Below, in pieces: positions 33,259 to 40,601 of a stretch of 64,000 bases of DNA (its first letter is position 1; the number at the start of each line of letters is the position of its first letter). The DNA is from Salinadaptatus halalkaliphilus (lineage in GTDB: Archaea > Halobacteriota > Halobacteria > Halobacteriales > Natrialbaceae): positions 62,001-126,000 of the forward strand of contig NZ_RBZW01000022.1 of NCBI RefSeq assembly GCF_006543045.1, given 5' to 3'. The notes under the pieces are model-generated. The model was not told where the DNA came from and did no database searches. It was given only the letters and a program-made list of their open reading frames with translations. A program made the translations under genes and the position numbers.

Positions 33259-33579
33259 TTACGGACCGGGCGAAGCGAGCGGCTCGGGTGCACCGCCGAA
33301 GAAGACGATGCCGATGATGACGGTCAGGACGAACATACTGATCCACATCGACGACGTCAGGCCGACCAGATAGCCAACGCCGAGTAGGCCGGTCTTCGCA
33401 TCGCGGGGCGTGCCGGTAAACCACGCGATAACCATCGCGTAGATCGGCACGAGGACGACGCCGAAGATGAGCCAGGTCCCCGTGTTCGGGAAGCCGGTCA
33501 CACCCTGGGTGCCGTCGTAGCCGTGATACAGTACCTCCGGTGGGATCGATGCGAGTGCAGCTGCGAGTGTCGCGCTCAT
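33259..33579 (-). CDS. small membrane subunit linked to NrfD complex
   Basis: A 106-residue protein: an N-terminal soluble stretch (PPEVLYHGYDGTQGVTGFPNTG) and three hydrophobic helices (about 35-55, 62-80 and 82-100), ending in GAPEPLASPGP. Its start overlaps the end of the NrfD gene by 4 bases, so it is very likely a subunit or assembly partner of that complex. I do not recognise a named family. Confidence 0.75.
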   Translation of the reverse strand: MSATLAAALASIPPEVLYHGYDGTQGVTGFPNTGTWLIFGVVLVPIYAMVIAWFTGTPRDAKTGLLGVGYLVGLTSSMWISMFVLTVIIGIVFFGGAPEPLASPGP

Positions 33580-34937
33580 GCTTTCACCTCCTGTTCGGTC
33601 GCGTGTTCAGTGTCCTCTCCGTGGCCGTGATCGCCGCGGAGATGCTCGATCGCGTGGAGTTCGACGACGGGAACGATCTTCGCAACCACGAGGAAGAACA
33701 GCACGACCATACCAATCGTGCCGGCGAGCGAAAGCCACTCGATAGCACTTGGGAAGTACTCCCCGGGGGTCGCCGCGTAGATTTCGAACTCGGGGTGCAG
33801 GAAGCCTTCGACGACGAAGATCAGTTTCTCGAGCAGCGTGCCGGTAAGCACGGCGAGTGCGGCGACGATCGCTCGAGGCTTGGTAAACAGCGACGGTCGG
33901 ATTGTCTGTGCAAAGATGTACGCGAGCGTTCCGAGGACCAGCACCATCGCGGTGATGTAGACCGGGTGGCCGATCGTCGCCGTCTGTGCAACGTCGGTGC
34001 TGACCGGCGCTGCGAACAGGCCGGTGACGTTCTGCTGGAGCTGGAGCCAGAGGAACAGCAGACAGAAGAAACCGAGCCACAGCAGGAGGCCACGGAAGAC
34101 GTCGTCGGTCATGATGTGGTCCCAATCGTAGGCACGACGGAACGCGTAGGCGACGATGATGACGCCGCTGATCGCCGATGTCAGCGCGATCGTCAGGAAC
34201 TGTGGCCCCTGGACGGCGCCGAACCAGGCGGGCATGCCCGGCAGGACCGCGAACAGCCACGGAATCACGCCGCCGTGAAGGAGCAGCGGCGCCATGATGA
34301 TGATCGCGAGTGCGAGCCACCAGACCATCCGCTCGACGATCTCGTCTTCCTCCTCGGTGTAGCCGAGGGTCATCATCTTGTAAATCGGTTCGAAGAGGTC
34401 CGGGAGCTGATCACGCAGACGCGTGATGTCGTACCGGAGCGTGAGTGCGAGGTAGGTCGCGGTCAACACGAAGTAGGCCGTGATGACCGTCACGTCCCAC
34501 ACCAGCGGCGAGTTGTTGACCGTGATGTGGTAATGACCGAGAATACTCGTGACCATCCGGTCGGGACGGCCCATGTGGACGATGATGTAGAAGCCAGCCG
34601 CGGAGAGACCGGCCAGCGTGAGCATCTCGGCGAGGCGGGCGACCGGCATGTACCGGTCCATGCCGAGCAGCCGGACCGCGGCGGAGAGGATGATCCCGCC
34701 GTGGGCGATCCCGACCCACCAGATGAACGCGCCGATGTACAGCCCCCAGGTTGCACCGCCACCGGAGCCCCAATCCGAGAGGCCGGTGACGATCATTCCC
34801 TGTTGGAGCTGATACGCCCACGCGACGAGAAACGCCCCGAAGACGAGCGCGCAGGCGACGAAGAGGGCGATAAACTGCTTCGAGAACGAGCCGATAGGGC
34901 GGATAATATCGCCCTCGGATGGCGTCTTCGTGCTCAT
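33576..34937 (-). CDS. NrfD/PsrC-type membrane quinone subunit
   Basis: A 453-residue protein with nine to ten predicted helices. It belongs to the NrfD/polysulfide-reductase C family: GLYIGAFIWWVGIAHGGIILSAAVRLL, then AEMLTLAGLSAAGFYIIVHMGRPDR and a long C-terminal half with GHPVYITAMVLVLGTLAYIFAQTIRP. Such subunits exchange electrons between menaquinone and the Fe-S subunit. It overlaps both neighbours by 4 bases (Fe-S protein upstream, small membrane protein downstream). The cytoplasmic tail is His/Glu-rich (GDHGHGEDTEHATEQE). Confidence 0.9.
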   Translation of the reverse strand: MSTKTPSEGDIIRPIGSFSKQFIALFVACALVFGAFLVAWAYQLQQGMIVTGLSDWGSGGGATWGLYIGAFIWWVGIAHGGIILSAAVRLLGMDRYMPVARLAEMLTLAGLSAAGFYIIVHMGRPDRMVTSILGHYHITVNNSPLVWDVTVITAYFVLTATYLALTLRYDITRLRDQLPDLFEPIYKMMTLGYTEEEDEIVERMVWWLALAIIIMAPLLLHGGVIPWLFAVLPGMPAWFGAVQGPQFLTIALTSAISGVIIVAYAFRRAYDWDHIMTDDVFRGLLLWLGFFCLLFLWLQLQQNVTGLFAAPVSTDVAQTATIGHPVYITAMVLVLGTLAYIFAQTIRPSLFTKPRAIVAALAVLTGTLLEKLIFVVEGFLHPEFEIYAATPGEYFPSAIEWLSLAGTIGMVVLFFLVVAKIVPVVELHAIEHLRGDHGHGEDTEHATEQEVKA

Positions 34938-36556
34938 AGTGACACCCCGGCGTCACCGACTGTTTCCTCGTCGAGGACCTCCTTGCGATTGTCGACCATG
35001 TCGACCATCTCGCCGTCAGCACGCTCGTAGCTCAGGTCGGCGTACTCGACACCCGTTCCAGTTGGCTCAGTCTGCTCGGCGTTCGGACCGGGCTCGTGGC
35101 CGAAGTACGTAATGTTCGGATTCGTTCCCATATCTTCTTGGAGCAAGAAGCTCGATTCCGGCGAACCATACTGCTGGTCGAGGACGACCTGCGCGTCGTC
35201 CGCGTCGCCATCGCCGAGGCCGAGTTCGTCGAGGATATCCTCGTCATCGAGGTCGAGACCGTGTGCTTCGATCACGTCGAGAGCCGCTTGAATGTCGGTC
35301 TCGGTGGCAGCCATGTCGCCGTCACCCTCGCCCATGCTCTCGCCAGTGATCCCGACGGCTTTCATCAGCATGAGATCCTCCACGTCGAGACCAGCAGCCT
35401 CGAGCACGGACTCGAGATCGTCGTCGGCACCATCGAGGTCCTCCTCGAGAGCGCTTTCGGATGGTGGAGACAGCCATTGAAGCGCCCGACCCCGACTCGG
35501 GTTGGTGGCGTACTTCGATGCGTCGCTGGTATCGGAGTTGACGTCGCCGAACTGAATAGCGCCAGGCGGACAGGCCTGCTCACAGGCCGTCGTCCCGACC
35601 ATGTCCTCGCCCATCTCGCCGTCCTGACGGGTCGGACACATCGTACACTTGCTCATCGTGCCACGCGGGGCGCGACTGTCGACCCACCGTTCTTCGCCGT
35701 TCTCGTAGGTGGTGGTCATGTGGTCGCTGTCCATCCCCTGCTCTTCGGTATAATACTCCTCGATCTGGTCCGTGGAAATATCCGGTTCGTCCCACTGGAA
35801 GTAGTTGACGCCGTAGGGACAGGCGACCTGACAGTAGCGACAACCGATACAGACGTCGTAGTCCGTCAGAACGAGCCCGTCCTGATCACGTGTGTGACGA
35901 GCGGTCGTCGGACACACCTTCTCACAGGGAGCATCGGTACAGTGCTGACACGGTCGAACGAGCCGGTTAGGCCGACCTGTCTGGGGCGTACTATCCTCAA
36001 ACTCGAGGACGTACATCCAGTTGACGCCCTGATCGAGGTTGTTCTCGTTCCCACAGGCCGTGACACAGGTGAGACAACCGTCACAGCGCTCGAGGTCGAT
36101 GGTCATCCCCCACTGGGTACCATCGCCGCCGTCGTCTTCCTGGGCAGCAGCGACCTGTTCCTGGGGCTCGGGCTCGCCGTCGTCGACGGTCCCCCACGCA
36201 CCGAGGCCGACGAACGCTGCGCCGGCACCCATCTTTTTCATGGCGTCACGGCGGCCCTCTTCACCGTCGCCCTCGAATTTCGAGAGCATTCGGGACATCG
36301 TCCCTTCCTCGGCGGCCTGGGCCTCCTCGTAGGCGGCTTCGGTCGGTCGCTGGTCCTCGCCGAATTCCTCCATCACGTCGTCGTGATACATCTCGTGGAA
36401 TTCGGCTTCGGAAAGCTCCCCTTTGGTGACCCGCATCGCGTCTTGGGCCATCTCCATACCGAGATCGCTATCGTACTCGGTATCGTCGAGCATCTCCTCG
36501 AGTTCGTTCTCCCACTCGTTCCCGAGCGGGTGGAATGATTCGTCGTCCGTACTCAT
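34934..36556 (-). CDS. four-cluster Fe-S electron transfer subunit with long N-terminal extension
   Basis: A 540-residue protein. Cysteine motifs CxxCxxCxxxC begin near 158 and 236, with further groups near 203 (CQHCTDAPCEKVCP) and 300 (CTMC...CEQACP), enough for four 4Fe-4S clusters as in PsrB/DmsB/NrfC. A twin-arginine and hydrophobic run (GRRDAMKKMGAGAAFVGLGAWG, about 101-122) implies Tat export, yet ~100 acidic residues precede it, which is unusual. The C-terminal ~170 residues are acidic and have no Cys. No molybdopterin catalytic subunit gene is next to it; the operon holds only this, NrfD and a small membrane protein. Confidence 0.88.
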   Translation of the reverse strand: MSTDDESFHPLGNEWENELEEMLDDTEYDSDLGMEMAQDAMRVTKGELSEAEFHEMYHDDVMEEFGEDQRPTEAAYEEAQAAEEGTMSRMLSKFEGDGEEGRRDAMKKMGAGAAFVGLGAWGTVDDGEPEPQEQVAAAQEDDGGDGTQWGMTIDLERCDGCLTCVTACGNENNLDQGVNWMYVLEFEDSTPQTGRPNRLVRPCQHCTDAPCEKVCPTTARHTRDQDGLVLTDYDVCIGCRYCQVACPYGVNYFQWDEPDISTDQIEEYYTEEQGMDSDHMTTTYENGEERWVDSRAPRGTMSKCTMCPTRQDGEMGEDMVGTTACEQACPPGAIQFGDVNSDTSDASKYATNPSRGRALQWLSPPSESALEEDLDGADDDLESVLEAAGLDVEDLMLMKAVGITGESMGEGDGDMAATETDIQAALDVIEAHGLDLDDEDILDELGLGDGDADDAQVVLDQQYGSPESSFLLQEDMGTNPNITYFGHEPGPNAEQTEPTGTGVEYADLSYERADGEMVDMVDNRKEVLDEETVGDAGVSL

Positions 36557-36619
36557 TACCTCAACACACCTCTGAACATAACTGGTCTATCATCGAATAG
36601 GTACTCACCGGGCTATACT

Positions 36620-36631
36620 TGAATACGTTCA
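36620..36631. promoter_or_regulatory. palindrome TGAA-TACG-TTCA upstream of Fe-S/NrfD operon
   Basis: Perfect 12-bp palindrome 64 bases upstream of the Fe-S gene start, directly beside a TATA-like GGCTATACTT. It is a variant of the CGAA-N4-TTCG motif repeated at 36711, 37449, 37495 and 39421 and is a candidate operator or activator site. Confidence 0.6.
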
Positions 36632-36710
36632 TTTGTGGCTACGCTACTGGCCACTCACGACTAGATTCGGATGAAGTATCATCCCGATTTCCACCTCGTG
36701 AGAATTGGGG

Positions 36711-36722
36711 CGAATATGTTCG
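36711..36722. promoter_or_regulatory. palindrome CGAA-TATG-TTCG
   Basis: A motif of form CGAA-N4-TTCG lying between the end of the HTH_10 gene (stop at 36730) and the Fe-S operon promoter, next to a second TATACTT sequence facing the other way. Possibly a second binding site for the same regulator. Confidence 0.6.
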
Positions 36723-36729
36723 CCTATAC

Positions 36730-37410
36730 TTATGTCGAGGCGTGTGGCGCAAGCTGTTCCTCGAGCGATTCGTCGTCCAGGCCGGGAACGTCGTCGACGA
36801 AGCGCTTGATGATCGCTTCTTCGGCGCGATGTAGCGTCTCGCTGCAGGTCGATTTCGCGATATCGAGGTGGGTCGCGAGGTCGGTCAACGAGCACCGACG
36901 TGGCGTATCGTAGTATCCCTCCTCGACCGCGGCGACGACGACCTCGAGCTGGCGGTCGGACAGCAGTTGACTCTCGTGAAGCCGCTCGCGAACGTGGTCG
37001 ATCCGGTACTGGAGTCCGAACTGTTCGAGCTGGTCGGCCAGTTCGGCGAGCCGTTCTCTCGAGCCAGTCACGTCGATCGTCGCCTCCCCGTCGCTGATCT
37101 CGACCGGCAGTTCGATCGGCATGCCCGACTCCTGGGAGGAAAAGAGCAACAACGGCGCCGTCGTCTCGAAGTGGACCGTCGCCTCGCTGTCGCTCCACTG
37201 GGCGAGTGTCAGTTCAGTGATCTGTGGATGGTCGTTCATATCGTCGATCACGTCCGGAACGGCCGGTCCGGTGATTCGGACCAGGGCGAATCCGGTGCTC
37301 GATCCGGGAACGCCTGCCAGAACGCGAAAGATTGCGTCCGGATAGTCCGTCGACAGTTGCTGGATCCAGACCTGCTCCGGCATAGTGATCGTCAGTGTTG
37401 CCTGTGCCAT
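36730..37410 (-). CDS. Bat-type HTH_10 transcriptional regulator
   Basis: A 226-residue protein from ATG at 37408-37410. The first ~150 residues are a beta-rich sensor-like domain seen in bacterio-opsin activator (Bat) relatives. The C-terminal HTH_10 domain reads LSDRQLEVVVAAVEEGYYDTPRRC then SLTDLATHLDIAKSTCSETLHRAEEAIIKRFV. Characterised haloarchaeal members (DmsR, NarO) activate anaerobic respiration genes. It sits upstream of the Fe-S/NrfD operon and near NirK, and CGAA-N4-TTCG palindromes flank it, so control of this locus is likely. NarO's Cys-rich N-terminal motif is not seen here. Confidence 0.88.
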   Translation of the reverse strand: MAQATLTITMPEQVWIQQLSTDYPDAIFRVLAGVPGSSTGFALVRITGPAVPDVIDDMNDHPQITELTLAQWSDSEATVHFETTAPLLLFSSQESGMPIELPVEISDGEATIDVTGSRERLAELADQLEQFGLQYRIDHVRERLHESQLLSDRQLEVVVAAVEEGYYDTPRRCSLTDLATHLDIAKSTCSETLHRAEEAIIKRFVDDVPGLDDESLEEQLAPHAST

Positions 37411-37448
37411 AGAAATTCCTTCGTATCCACCCCTACTCCGTCTAGGGA

Positions 37449-37460
37449 CGAATATGTACG
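37449..37460. promoter_or_regulatory. palindrome variant CGAA-TATG-TACG upstream of HTH_10 gene
   Basis: One mismatch from CGAA-N4-TTCG, about 39 bases before the regulator's start codon. Autoregulation of the regulator is an inference. Confidence 0.5.
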
Positions 37461-37494
37461 GCTGTATTCTTACGAACTGGGAATCGCGAGCGGG

Positions 37495-37506
37495 CGAACA
37501 CGTTCG
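37495..37506. promoter_or_regulatory. palindrome CGAA-CACG-TTCG upstream of DUF2249 cluster
   Basis: Perfect CGAA-N4-TTCG, 39 bases before the first DUF2249 start. It also lies between this gene and the divergent HTH_10 regulator, so it could serve both. Confidence 0.6.
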
Positions 37507-37545
37507 AACGAACAGCCAACTCCCCACGGCCCAATACCTCGAGTG

Positions 37546-37773
37546 ATGACAGCACATTCAGCAGACCGGACAGTCGACATCCGCGACATCGATGGCCCCC
37601 CGTTCGAGGATATCACGACCGCGCTCGATAGCCTCGAGCGCGACAACGAACTCCTGGTTGTCGTTCCGTTCGAACCAGTCCCACTCTACGATGTCCTCGA
37701 GACGCGCGGGTTCGCCTACGAGAGCGATCAACAATCGGCGGATCTGTGGCACGTCCGTATAGAACGGGCGTAG
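37546..37773 (+). CDS. DUF2249 protein, first of three
   Basis: A 75-residue protein from ATG 37546. The core RTVDIRDIDGPPFEDITTALDSLERDNELLVVVPFEPVPLYDVLETRGFAYE is a typical DUF2249/TusA-like alpha/beta fold. The family often accompanies nitrate, nitrite and nitric oxide reduction genes and has been proposed to handle metal or sulfur. No Cys is present. It is followed by two paralogues within 700 bp. Confidence 0.85.
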   Translation: MTAHSADRTVDIRDIDGPPFEDITTALDSLERDNELLVVVPFEPVPLYDVLETRGFAYESDQQSADLWHVRIERA

Positions 37774-37826
37774 GGGAAGATGTTCGCGACAACACGGACA
37801 GCGAGTACGCACCGATATCAAACCGC

Positions 37827-38060
37827 ATGACACGACTCGATGTCAGGGATATACCGCCGGTGAACCGCCATCCGACCATCCACGACGCGTTCGACGATCT
37901 CGAGCCGGGTGAGACGTTGACGATCGTCAATGACCACGAGCCAAAGCCACTGTTCTACGAGTTCCAGGCCGAAGTGCCGGCGTTCGACGACGACGGCTAC
38001 GAGGTCGAACGCGTCGAACCCGAGAAATTCGTCGCACGATTCCCCAAACGAGCGCCGTAG
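37827..38060 (+). CDS. DUF2249 protein, second of three
   Basis: A 77-residue protein from ATG 37827: RLDVRDIPPVNRHPTIHDAFDDLEPGETLTIVNDHEPKPLFYEFQAEVPAFDDDGYEVERVE. The NDHEPKPLFYEF loop is the most conserved part of the family. 53 bp after the first paralogue, so probably one transcript. Confidence 0.87.
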   Translation: MTRLDVRDIPPVNRHPTIHDAFDDLEPGETLTIVNDHEPKPLFYEFQAEVPAFDDDGYEVERVEPEKFVARFPKRAP

Positions 38061-38132
38061 TCACCACCAACCGTCGACCACCGACACTAATCACGTTTCA
38101 CCGACCGCCGATACCGACCCCCCACCGCAGCA

Positions 38133-38402
38133 ATGTCCACTGTAACCTCCGTCGCCGACCGAACCGACGCACCGCAAGACCGGCCCCGCGAAACGCTGGA
38201 TGTCCGATCGCTGGGTCCACCAACACCGCTCAAACGGACGCTCGAGCTACTGACCGAGGTTCCCGACGAGACGGTCCTCGTCCAGCGCAACGACCGAGTC
38301 CCGCAGTTTCTCTTCCCGAAACTCGAGGATCGAGGCTACGCGTACGAGACCGTCGAACTCGAGGCGGAGGTCGTGACCGTCATCTGGGATCCCGCCGTCT
38401 AA
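38133..38402 (+). CDS. DUF2249 protein, third of three
   Basis: An 89-residue protein with a ~20-residue N-terminal tail, then ETLDVRSLGPPTPLKRTLELLTEVPDETVLVQRNDRVPQFLFPKLEDRGYAYE. It keeps the same fold, with VPQFLFPKL replacing EPKPLFYEF. It has a 72-bp spacer from the second copy. Confidence 0.85.
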   Translation: MSTVTSVADRTDAPQDRPRETLDVRSLGPPTPLKRTLELLTEVPDETVLVQRNDRVPQFLFPKLEDRGYAYETVELEAEVVTVIWDPAV

Positions 38403-38444
38403 CCGAAACACGGCGTGGGTGTCCCGCCTCGGGTGGGCAAGTCT

Positions 38445-39338
38445 CTATTTGTGGAGGTGCTCGAGCAAGAGCGATGTCGTTCGCGCCGGCCGTTCGCGGG
38501 GAACCCAGTGACTCGTTTCGGGAAGCAACTCGAGGCGAGCGTCCGCACAGAAGTCGTAACTGTCGACGGCCAACGCCGGGACGAGCGCCGAATCGTCTTC
38601 ACCCCAGATAACGAGCGTCGGTGGGGCTACCCTGTCGCGCGATAGGTCGGGTGGATAGCGGGCGCTCGCTCGATACCAGTTGCACATGCCCGTCAGTGCG
38701 CCGTCCTGACTCCAGGTCCGACGGTAGTGGGCGACAGCCGTGTCGGTGTAGGTTCCCGGGGCGGACGTAGACCGAAGGGTGCGCTCGAGCACCCGATAGT
38801 CGTCGTGTCGACAAACTCGCTCGGGGAGCCAGGGGAGCTGGAATACATACGCGTACCAGCTCCGGCGAATCTGCTCGGGGTTCGAGAGCAGCTGCCGTCG
38901 AAATGCGGTCGGGTGCGGGGCGTTGACGACCGCGAGTCGATCGACGACCGCGGGATACTCGAGCGCGAGATACCAGCCGATCATCCCACCCCAGTCGTGG
39001 CCGACGACGTGGGCGCTCTCACGACCCTCGGACCGAATCAGCGAGATGATATCTCGAGCGAGTTCCGACTGTCGATAGGCTCGAACCGACTGCGGTTTGT
39101 CGCTCAGATTGTAGCCACGCTGGTCGGGGACGAGAACCCGATAGCCGGCGTCGACGAACGGCTCGAGTTGGTCCCGCCACGTGTACCACCATTCCGGAAA
39201 CCCGTGTAAGAAGACAACGAGAGGATCGGTCTCCTCGCCGGCGACGACCGCATGGAGGTCGACGCCGTGTCCCTCGCGGTCGGTTCTCGACCCAACGTCC
39301 GTCGGAAGCGCGTCACTCGTGGCCGTCGTCGGTTCCAT
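38445..39338 (-). CDS. alpha/beta hydrolase, epoxide-hydrolase type
   Basis: A 297-residue enzyme. The oxyanion motif HGFPEWWYTWRDQ, the nucleophile elbow VGHDWGGMIGW (Asp), LPETSHWVPRERP (His) and a cap region with a Tyr-rich part match soluble epoxide hydrolases and haloalkane dehalogenases. Divergent from nirK; a TATA element for this strand is present at 39405-39412. Substrate unknown; no tie to denitrification known. Confidence 0.88.
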   Translation of the reverse strand: MEPTTATSDALPTDVGSRTDREGHGVDLHAVVAGEETDPLVVFLHGFPEWWYTWRDQLEPFVDAGYRVLVPDQRGYNLSDKPQSVRAYRQSELARDIISLIRSEGRESAHVVGHDWGGMIGWYLALEYPAVVDRLAVVNAPHPTAFRRQLLSNPEQIRRSWYAYVFQLPWLPERVCRHDDYRVLERTLRSTSAPGTYTDTAVAHYRRTWSQDGALTGMCNWYRASARYPPDLSRDRVAPPTLVIWGEDDSALVPALAVDSYDFCADARLELLPETSHWVPRERPARTTSLLLEHLHK

Positions 39339-39404
39339 ACTCGAATGGCTTTGCGTAACCCCTTGAAGGTGAGCCGTGCCGATCGACGGTGCAAACGTCG
39401 TGGC

Positions 39405-39412
39405 TTTATATA
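39405..39412. promoter_or_regulatory. TATA box TTTATATA between hydrolase and nirK
   Basis: A strong archaeal TATA-like sequence that reads TATATAAA on the minus strand, about 67 bases ahead of the hydrolase start. It could instead serve nirK on the plus strand with a longer leader; direction is not settled. Confidence 0.55.
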
Positions 39413-39420
39413 CCTCAGGC

Positions 39421-39432
39421 CGAACCGATTCG
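39421..39432. promoter_or_regulatory. palindrome CGAA-CCGA-TTCG upstream of nirK
   Basis: CGAA-N4-TTCG, 78 bases before the nirK ATG and about 40 bases upstream of an AACATATAG TATA-like element. Same half-sites as near the regulator and Fe-S operon, so nirK probably shares the regulator. Confidence 0.6.
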
Positions 39433-39509: not shown

Positions 39510-40601
39510 ATGACCGTCACAACAATCAATCGACGAACGTTCATGCAAGGTGTTGGAGCGACCGGCGCGGTGGCAGTTGCCGGCTGCCTCGAGAGTTCGG
39601 CGTCGGGGACCGACGACGAACCGCAGGCGACCGACGACGACGAGGGGCTTCCCCCGGCCGAAGCGGTCGACGTCGAGACGGTTGCGGCCGATCCGACGGA
39701 TATTCCGCCCCCGGTCGACTGGGACGAGCCGCGAACGCACGAGATCACGATGGAGACCATCGAGGTCACCGCCGAGATCGAACCCGGCGTCACCATCCGG
39801 TACATGACCTACGACGGGCAGATCCCGGGCCCGATGGTCCGGGTTCGCGAAGGTGACACGATCGACCTGACCTTCGAGGTGCCCGACGACCACAACCGCG
39901 ACGTCCACAACGTGGACTTCCACGCGGTCTACGGCCCGGGCGGCGGCGCGGAGGCGACGACGATCGCACCCGGCGACGAGCCGGCGCGACTTCGCTTCCA
40001 GACGCGATATCCCGGCATCCACATCTACCACTGTGCGGTCCCGGCGATGGACCAGCACATCAGCCTGGGGATGTTCGGCGCGATCCTCGTCGAACCGAAG
40101 GAGGGGCTCCCCGAAGTCGATCGGGAGTTCTACTTCGGTCAGCACGAACTGTACACCGACGGCGAGACGGGCGAAGACGGCCACCACCGCTTCGACTTCG
40201 ACGCCTCGGCCGACGAGGATCCGACCTACGTCCTCCTGAACGGCGAGGCCTACGCCTTCACCGACGACGGCCAGCACGGCCCGGTCCACGCCGAAGTCGG
40301 CGAGACGGTTCGGGTGTACTTCGCCAACGGCGGTCCGAACCTCACGAGCGCGTTCCATCCGATCGGCAACGTCTGGTCGAGGCTCTACCGGGACGGCGAC
40401 TTACTCTCGGACCCCGGCCAGAACGTCGAGACGGCGCCGATCGCCCCCGGGACGGTCGTGGCCGGCGAAATGGAACTGCCCGTGCCCGGCCCGATCAAAC
40501 TCGTCGACCACGCGCTCTCGCGAGTGCTCCACAAGGGCATGATGGGGGTGATCGATGTCGAAGGCGAACCGAACCCCGATGTCTACGACGACGATCCGTA
40601 G
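39510..40601 (+). CDS. nirK: copper-containing nitrite reductase NirK
   Basis: A 363-residue exported protein with a Tat leader (NRRTFMQGVG) and lipobox AGC with Cys26, so probably lipid-anchored outside the cell. All copper ligands are visible: HNVDFHA gives type-1 His133, catalytic Asp136 and type-2 His138; IYHCAVPAMDQHISLGM gives type-2 His174 and type-1 Cys175, His183 and Met188; FHPIG gives His283; VDHAL gives His334. It reduces nitrite to nitric oxide in denitrification. No NO or N2O reductase gene is in the window. Upstream palindrome at 39421 suggests control by the neighbouring HTH_10 regulator. Confidence 0.95.
   Translation: MTVTTINRRTFMQGVGATGAVAVAGCLESSASGTDDEPQATDDDEGLPPAEAVDVETVAADPTDIPPPVDWDEPRTHEITMETIEVTAEIEPGVTIRYMTYDGQIPGPMVRVREGDTIDLTFEVPDDHNRDVHNVDFHAVYGPGGGAEATTIAPGDEPARLRFQTRYPGIHIYHCAVPAMDQHISLGMFGAILVEPKEGLPEVDREFYFGQHELYTDGETGEDGHHRFDFDASADEDPTYVLLNGEAYAFTDDGQHGPVHAEVGETVRVYFANGGPNLTSAFHPIGNVWSRLYRDGDLLSDPGQNVETAPIAPGTVVAGEMELPVPGPIKLVDHALSRVLHKGMMGVIDVEGEPNPDVYDDDP

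Follow-up and report, generated by a model that had tools for sequence, protein, structure and literature searches.

The stretch of DNA analyzed here is a 64,000-nucleotide (nt) segment of a contig from the haloarchaeon Salinadaptatus halalkaliphilus (NZ_RBZW01000022.1, positions 62,001 to 126,000, hereafter the window), taken from a genome of 4.52 Mb in 77 contigs whose closest relatives belong to the Natrialbaceae. Our study is concerned with the promoters of a cluster that ends in nirK, the gene for a copper nitrite reductase, and with the short palindromes of the form CGAA-N4-TTCG that recur in them. From left to right, the cluster contains an iron-sulphur (Fe-S)/NrfD unit, a regulator of the HTH_10 family, a divergently transcribed trio of DUF2249 genes and nirK (Table 1), with an alpha/beta hydrolase gene on the minus strand separating the trio from nirK. 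The nirK product scored 369 bits against TIGR02376 (cut-off, 296), and the C-terminal HTH_10 domain of the regulator (PF04967, residues 150-202) reached 66.8 bits against a cut-off of 23.1. No Pfam family matched the 106-amino-acid (aa) protein encoded by the terminal gene of the Fe-S/NrfD unit.

Table 1. Genes and promoter elements of the nirK cluster in window coordinates; composite E-values refer to the paired palindromes described in the text.
Feature	Coordinates	Strand	Remarks
106-aa protein, terminal gene of Fe-S/NrfD unit	33259..33579	-	conserved among relatives
NrfD-type membrane subunit, quinone-interacting	33576..34937	-	domain match
Fe-S electron-transfer protein	34934..36556	-	Ferredoxin_N and Fer4 domains
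12-mer TGAACGTATTCA, doubtful operator	36620..36631	-	more a B recognition element (BRE)/TATA-type core element of the Fe-S operon
Second palindrome, Fe-S promoter, TTCTCA-CGAGG-TGGAAA	36688..36704	-	6 bp off CGAA site; composite E = 1.3e-8
Fe-S/NrfD promoter CGAA palindrome	36711..36722	-	CGAACATATTCG on - strand; 0 mismatches to CGAAYATRTTCG
HTH_10 regulator, 226 aa, candidate operator reader	36730..37410	-	PF04967 1.5e-18; AlphaFold2 model
CGAA palindrome CGAATATGTACG	37449..37460	+	-50 of HTH_10 regulator, about -97 of first DUF2249 gene
Second palindrome, regulator/DUF2249, TTCTTACGAACTGGGAA	37467..37483	+	composite E = 6e-7
CGAA palindrome CGAACACGTTCG	37495..37506	+	-51 to -40 of first DUF2249 gene
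DUF2249 protein 1	37546..37773	+	domain match
DUF2249 protein 2	37827..38060	+	domain match
DUF2249 protein 3	38133..38402	+	domain match
nirK CGAA palindrome, decayed core CGAACCGATTCG	39421..39432	+	-89 to -78 of nirK
Second palindrome, nirK, TTCTCT-CTCGA-AAGGAA	39439..39455	+	6 bp off CGAA site; composite E = 1e-3
nirK, copper nitrite reductase with twin-arginine translocation (TAT) signal	39510..40601	+	TIGR02376

CGAA palindromes of the cluster

The original prediction had taken five 12-mers as copies of one operator placed ahead of the four transcription units and bound by the local regulator. All five were recovered, with two mismatches to CGAA-N4-TTCG at 36620, one at 37449 and none at 36711, 37495 and 39421. 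Their placement ahead of the units also holds in general, with the qualification that the site at 36711 lies just beyond the 3' end of the regulator gene, upstream of the Fe-S operon, and that those at 37449 and 37495 both fall within the divergent region between the regulator and the DUF2249 genes. The five sites are of unequal standing because the bare pattern is common in the window—nine exact copies in 64 kb, against approximately three in shuffled sequence, and only three of the nine belong to the predicted set. Genome-wide counts, made by pattern and model searches, gave 111 sites for the version with palindromic inner bases (CGAAYNNRTTCG), with three in these 2.8 kb (Poisson P = 5e-5). 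Bare CGAA-N4-TTCG is thus too frequent to mark a regulon by itself, and its use as a genome-wide marker was rejected. The informative form of the motif is the AT-rich core CGAAYATRTTCG, whose only matches in the window with at most one mismatch are the sites at 36711, 37449 and 37495, all of them intergenic.

Conservation across a sample of about 20 Natrialbaceae relatives separated the sites further. The regulator promoter retained CGAAYATATTCG at -50 in most of these relatives, and the CGAA site of the Fe-S promoter (about -166) likewise kept its place, between about -155 and -167, together with the spacing. The site at 37495, on the DUF2249 side, was retained chiefly where DUF2249 genes adjoin. 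In nirK-bearing relatives, a CGAA site starts at -83 to -92, mostly as CGAACATGTTCG or a near variant, and its core is usually better than in the window, where it has decayed. Only some of the relatives preserve a palindrome at 36620, the others reading GACCGTATTTAA or ATGACCGTATTTAACT, which resemble BRE/TATA sequences; on these grounds its rank as an operator equal to the rest was rejected, and this 12-mer is probably not an operator, looking more like a core-promoter element. The nine exact copies in the window, the 111 CGAAYNNRTTCG sites in the genome and several near matches within genes could suggest that, with so much GC in the genome, these 12-mers match CGAA/TTCG by chance or through codon usage. 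Nevertheless, positional conservation, together with the fixed spacing and the class-wide link to nitrogen-oxide genes described below, contradicts this view for the sites at 36711, 37449, 37495 and the nirK position, and makes it very improbable overall, with room for it at 36620.

Beyond the operators, the Fe-S operon has a long leader (36557-36690) that is unusually conserved in all relatives at about -110 to -60, where it reads TAGTTGTGAGTCCGGGGTAGAGGATCCAC. Elsewhere in the genome, the divergent promoter between a COX1-like 455-aa membrane protein and a MoaD/ThiS-like protein (L122:3799-3924, i.e., contig C41:311298-311423 of the source genome, G000) contains three CGAA palindromes, 38-39 nt from each start, and both genes are likely to be further members of the regulon.

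A second palindrome at fixed spacing

In the Fe-S, regulator/DUF2249 and nirK promoters, the CGAA palindrome is followed, after exactly 6 bp, by a second palindrome of 17 bp, TTCYCA-N5-TGRGAA (window copies TTCTCACGAGGTGGAAA, TTCTTACGAACTGGGAA and TTCTCTCTCGAAAGGAA). The centers of the two palindromes are 20.5 bp apart (19.5 in some cases), a spacing shared by three non-homologous promoters. The operator is composite, and the single palindrome of the original prediction had missed its second half. A model of the composite (41 positions, 25 training sites, the window's own included) returned just three matches at a significant level (E <= 1e-3) genome-wide, all within this 2.8-kb cluster, with the next best match at 0.29. 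Since the window's sites were part of the training set, the informative part of this result is the lack of other matches in the genome. The check originally proposed as a refutation, i.e., an even density of sites genome-wide, was run in part in this manner, and the significant composite matches turned out to be confined to the cluster. A composite-like site with three mismatches was also observed in the same genome ahead of a gene for a plastocyanin-family lipoprotein (L127:2506-2540; contig C48:5505-5539).

The composite model was also run on 294 genomes of the class, and the regions around 40 strong or extra matches were read. Genes in the same orientation and starting 77-101 nt from a match included nirK, NirK-like multicopper oxidases, Fe-S and DUF2249 genes, as well as genes for plastocyanin-family copper proteins (cupredoxins) and a SCO1/SenC protein; the genes for a norB-type haem-copper protein of 744 aa and for an enzyme of the NarG/DMSO-reductase type started 148 and 147 nt from a match, respectively. 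In the source genome itself, a search with one haloarchaeal norB query, run with no positive control, did not find norB. Moreover, in a blind test on 60 nirK promoters chosen by gene and not by motif, 30 contained a CGAA site with at most one mismatch (null, 0.75%) and 27 contained the composite (null, 0.08%). Among 47 promoters with a CGAA site outside the family of the window, the second palindrome peaked at offset 6, where the mean score was 7.21 out of 12—compared with 3.43 +/- 0.74 over all offsets—and 27 of the 47 scored 8 or more. The nirK promoters outside the family also displayed a weaker, third TTCYCA peak at offset 26, 20 bp past the second, in 9 of 47 cases, which hints at tandem sites.

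Two promoter layouts emerge when these elements are set against predicted TATA positions. In the first, typical of the regulator, DUF2249 and some cupredoxin genes, the CGAA site would immediately precede the TATA box, at position -50 or so relative to the start codon; regulator promoters indeed display a TATA-like sequence directly downstream of the site. In the second, found for nirK, Fe-S/NrfD, many cupredoxin and some norB genes, the CGAA site lies farther out, with TTCYCA between it and the putative TATA box. For nirK, the AT-rich TTTATATA just 5' of 39421 was rejected as the TATA box, as it is not conserved in most relatives, and the TATA-like ACATATAG between the second palindrome and the gene appears to fit the layout better. 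The position of the CGAA site upstream of TATA, with the second palindrome interposed at nirK, suggests activation from upstream, to which the second class of promoters would add a further phased site.

A candidate regulator for the operator

The local HTH_10 protein is, on the basis of sequence comparisons, the best candidate for the protein that reads the operator, because the promoters of its orthologs themselves hold a CGAA site and because the regulator accompanies nirK almost throughout. The site precedes regulator orthologs in several families, some of them without an Fe-S neighbor, and in many (although not all) orthologs from other families it matches CGAACATGTTCG fully or nearly so, between about -50 and -66 of the gene. 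In co-occurrence tables matched by eye, with statistics that ignore shared ancestry, the regulator (E <= 1e-30) was present in 160 of 162 nirK-bearing genomes, against 97 of 132 genomes lacking nirK, and composite matches at E <= 0.01 occurred in 122 of 257 genomes with the regulator, against 1 of 37 without it. The two nirK genomes with no regulator ortholog at this cut-off belong to one genus (G070 and G126), and their nirK genes lack the site. Additionally, homologs from Haloferax larsenii (42% identical) and Halorussus (46%) are both located within nor/nirK/halocyanin/DUF2249 clusters, where CGAA sites precede the regulator, norB, nirK, halocyanin and DUF2249 genes; the gap between halocyanin and norB in Halorussus contains one CGAA site flanked by the second palindrome on each side.

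The AlphaFold2 model of the regulator (mean pLDDT, 79.7) places the HTH after a tandem pair of beta-alpha-beta-beta-alpha-beta repeats, an arrangement that, as modeled, would suit ligand sensing. Just two cysteine residues occur in the protein, both within the HTH part. A fold search of the Protein Data Bank with this model returned no convincing full-length relative, the best meaningful match being 5m86 with a template modeling score of 0.46.

Taken together, these results argue, with a probability of roughly two in three, that the cluster is a denitrification regulon island under a composite operator, i.e., CGAAYATRTTCG and TTCYCA-N5-TGRGAA, 6 bp apart and with centers two helical turns from each other. 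In the mechanism that we propose, low oxygen would lead to activation through dimers of the local HTH_10 protein (similar to Bat, DmsR and NarO), which would occupy the CGAA palindrome on the upstream side of BRE/TATA and assist in recruiting the TATA-binding protein (TBP) and transcription factor B (TFB). The two N-terminal ferredoxin-like domains of the regulator may sense a ligand, and the phased second palindrome could hold a further dimer, whether of this regulator or of a different one. The site at -50 would subject the regulator to its own control.

Besides the neglect of shared ancestry, several points weigh against this reading. The second nirK of the source genome has no operator site, nor do several nirK genes in other genomes, and a rule extending the operator to all copper nitrite reductases was accordingly rejected. 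Genome G198 has a composite match and no regulator ortholog at E <= 1e-30. The source genome encodes 46 HTH_10 proteins, and in some relatives the regulator promoter has lost the CGAA palindrome and kept the second one; several relatives lacking DUF2249 have a perfect TTCCCA-N5-TGGGAA at this promoter together with a decayed CGAA palindrome. The palindrome recognized by the regulator may therefore be the second one, or a different protein may recognize either of the two. The second nirK (contig C51:4479-5576) is 67% identical to the first, and CGAA-type sites are located farther along its contig, near an oxidase cluster.

The palindromes differ in sequence, which could mean that one regulator acts on CGAA-N4-TTCG and another on TTCYCA-N5-TGRGAA, forming a two-input gate for, e.g., oxygen and a nitrogen oxide. 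Such an arrangement would explain why promoters with CGAA alone or with both are known, and it agrees with CGAA-only regulator promoters outside the family and second-only ones in some Natrialbaceae. No second candidate regulator was identified, and the fixed 20.5-bp phase would also be compatible with a single protein bound as two dimers or with a single larger complex. We regard as tentative, and on balance doubtful, the idea that a second regulator sits two turns from the CGAA-binding protein on a shared two-part operator, making of it a class-wide switch that integrates two signals. Another HTH_10 protein of the NarO/DmsR type, encoded elsewhere, might instead read the CGAA site, the local regulator being just a target—an option in line with the 46 HTH_10 proteins of the genome and with NarO being, in the literature available in part to us, the sole characterized haloarchaeal denitrification regulator. 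This is rather unlikely, given that regulator orthologs of different families retain the site ahead of their own genes, that the ortholog is found together with both nirK and the composite, and that the genus with nirK and no ortholog at the cut-off also lacks the nirK site. Binding by the local regulator, as originally predicted, is a good inference that the number of HTH_10 proteins and the two different palindromes leave unsupported in its initial form.

Known denitrification systems

The 12-mer itself is already known, and the predicted motif is real and not new. In Haloferax mediterranei, the accessible parts of two studies (Miralles-Robledillo 2023, PMC10062603; RNA-seq 2024, PMC11218638) describe CGAAYATDKTYG, a 12-bp semi-palindrome with an AT-rich core, in the nar, nir, nor and nos promoters; on this topic, the motif strings were found by text search in these H. 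mediterranei studies only. Altering the motif lowered nos and nor promoter activity, with no significant effect for nirK, and copies also precede genes for a bacterio-opsin-activator-like regulator and DUF2249 proteins. The sites described here thus represent a genuine operator of denitrification genes whose kind is known, to which the bipartite, phased form appears to be an addition. An operator shared within a nitrogen-oxide respiration regulon is well supported by this mutagenesis, by the positions kept in relatives and by the class-wide search that reached nirK, cupredoxins, multicopper oxidases and norB; of the proposal of one operator for all four units, the sharing stands, with a composite element and probably without 36620.

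The composite bears on the question of which protein governs denitrification in haloarchaea, given that the H. mediterranei papers, in the parts available, call the regulator of the motif unknown. It should ease finding the reader of the switch, as it is a far more specific pattern for genome searches and points to a regulator that is conserved together with nirK. Through the composite, the regulon further takes in Fe-S/NrfD modules and cupredoxins, which may supply electrons to NirK. The Fe-S (Ferredoxin_N) and NrfD unit (33259-36556) has no adjoining catalytic subunit, resembles DsrO/DsrP, QrcC and subunit B of alternative complex III, and adjoins the regulator even in relatives lacking nirK or DUF2249. 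A role as an electron route from quinol to cupredoxin for NirK is possible.

NarO of Haloferax volcanii (Hattori 2016; Koyanagi 2021, cited in PMC10062603) is associated, according to the available part of that paper, with a similar motif in several haloarchaeal genera. NarO, as described there, and the local regulator are both HTH_10/Bat-type proteins without PAS/GAF domains, with a role in denitrification control that is probable for the latter. NarO lies upstream of the nar operon, whereas the local regulator is found with Fe-S/NrfD, DUF2249 and nirK, and no nar genes occur among its immediate neighbors (33.2-40.6 kb). Neither the bipartite, helically phased form of the operator nor its spread across the class appears to have been described in the sources covered, among which the NarO publication itself is not included.

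The resemblance to H. mediterranei extends from sequence to setting. The site at 36711 is identical to the nirK copy of that species, CGAATATGTTCG, those at 37449 and 37495 are within one mismatch of the palindromic core, and 39421 matches at its ends only. In the source genome, only two other exact copies of CGAATATGTTCG exist, 62 and 72 nt ahead of genes for HalOD1 and receiver-GAF proteins (L120:3734 and L121:6915). As far as the available text goes, the motif lies approximately 66-79 nt upstream of the H. mediterranei denitrification genes (79 nt for nirK), comparable to -89 to -78 at nirK here, and nirK, nor, DUF2249, a Bat-like regulator and halocyanin form a common set of neighbors. The bacterio-opsin-activator-like protein E6P09_00735 is likely the counterpart of the local regulator by synteny, with the H. 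larsenii homolog located in a matching nor/halocyanin/DUF2249 cluster; an Fe-S/NrfD operon is not mentioned for its cluster in the accessible text. Whereas these papers, in the parts available, describe the 12-mer only, our analysis adds the second palindrome, the two promoter layouts and the spread of the composite across the class.

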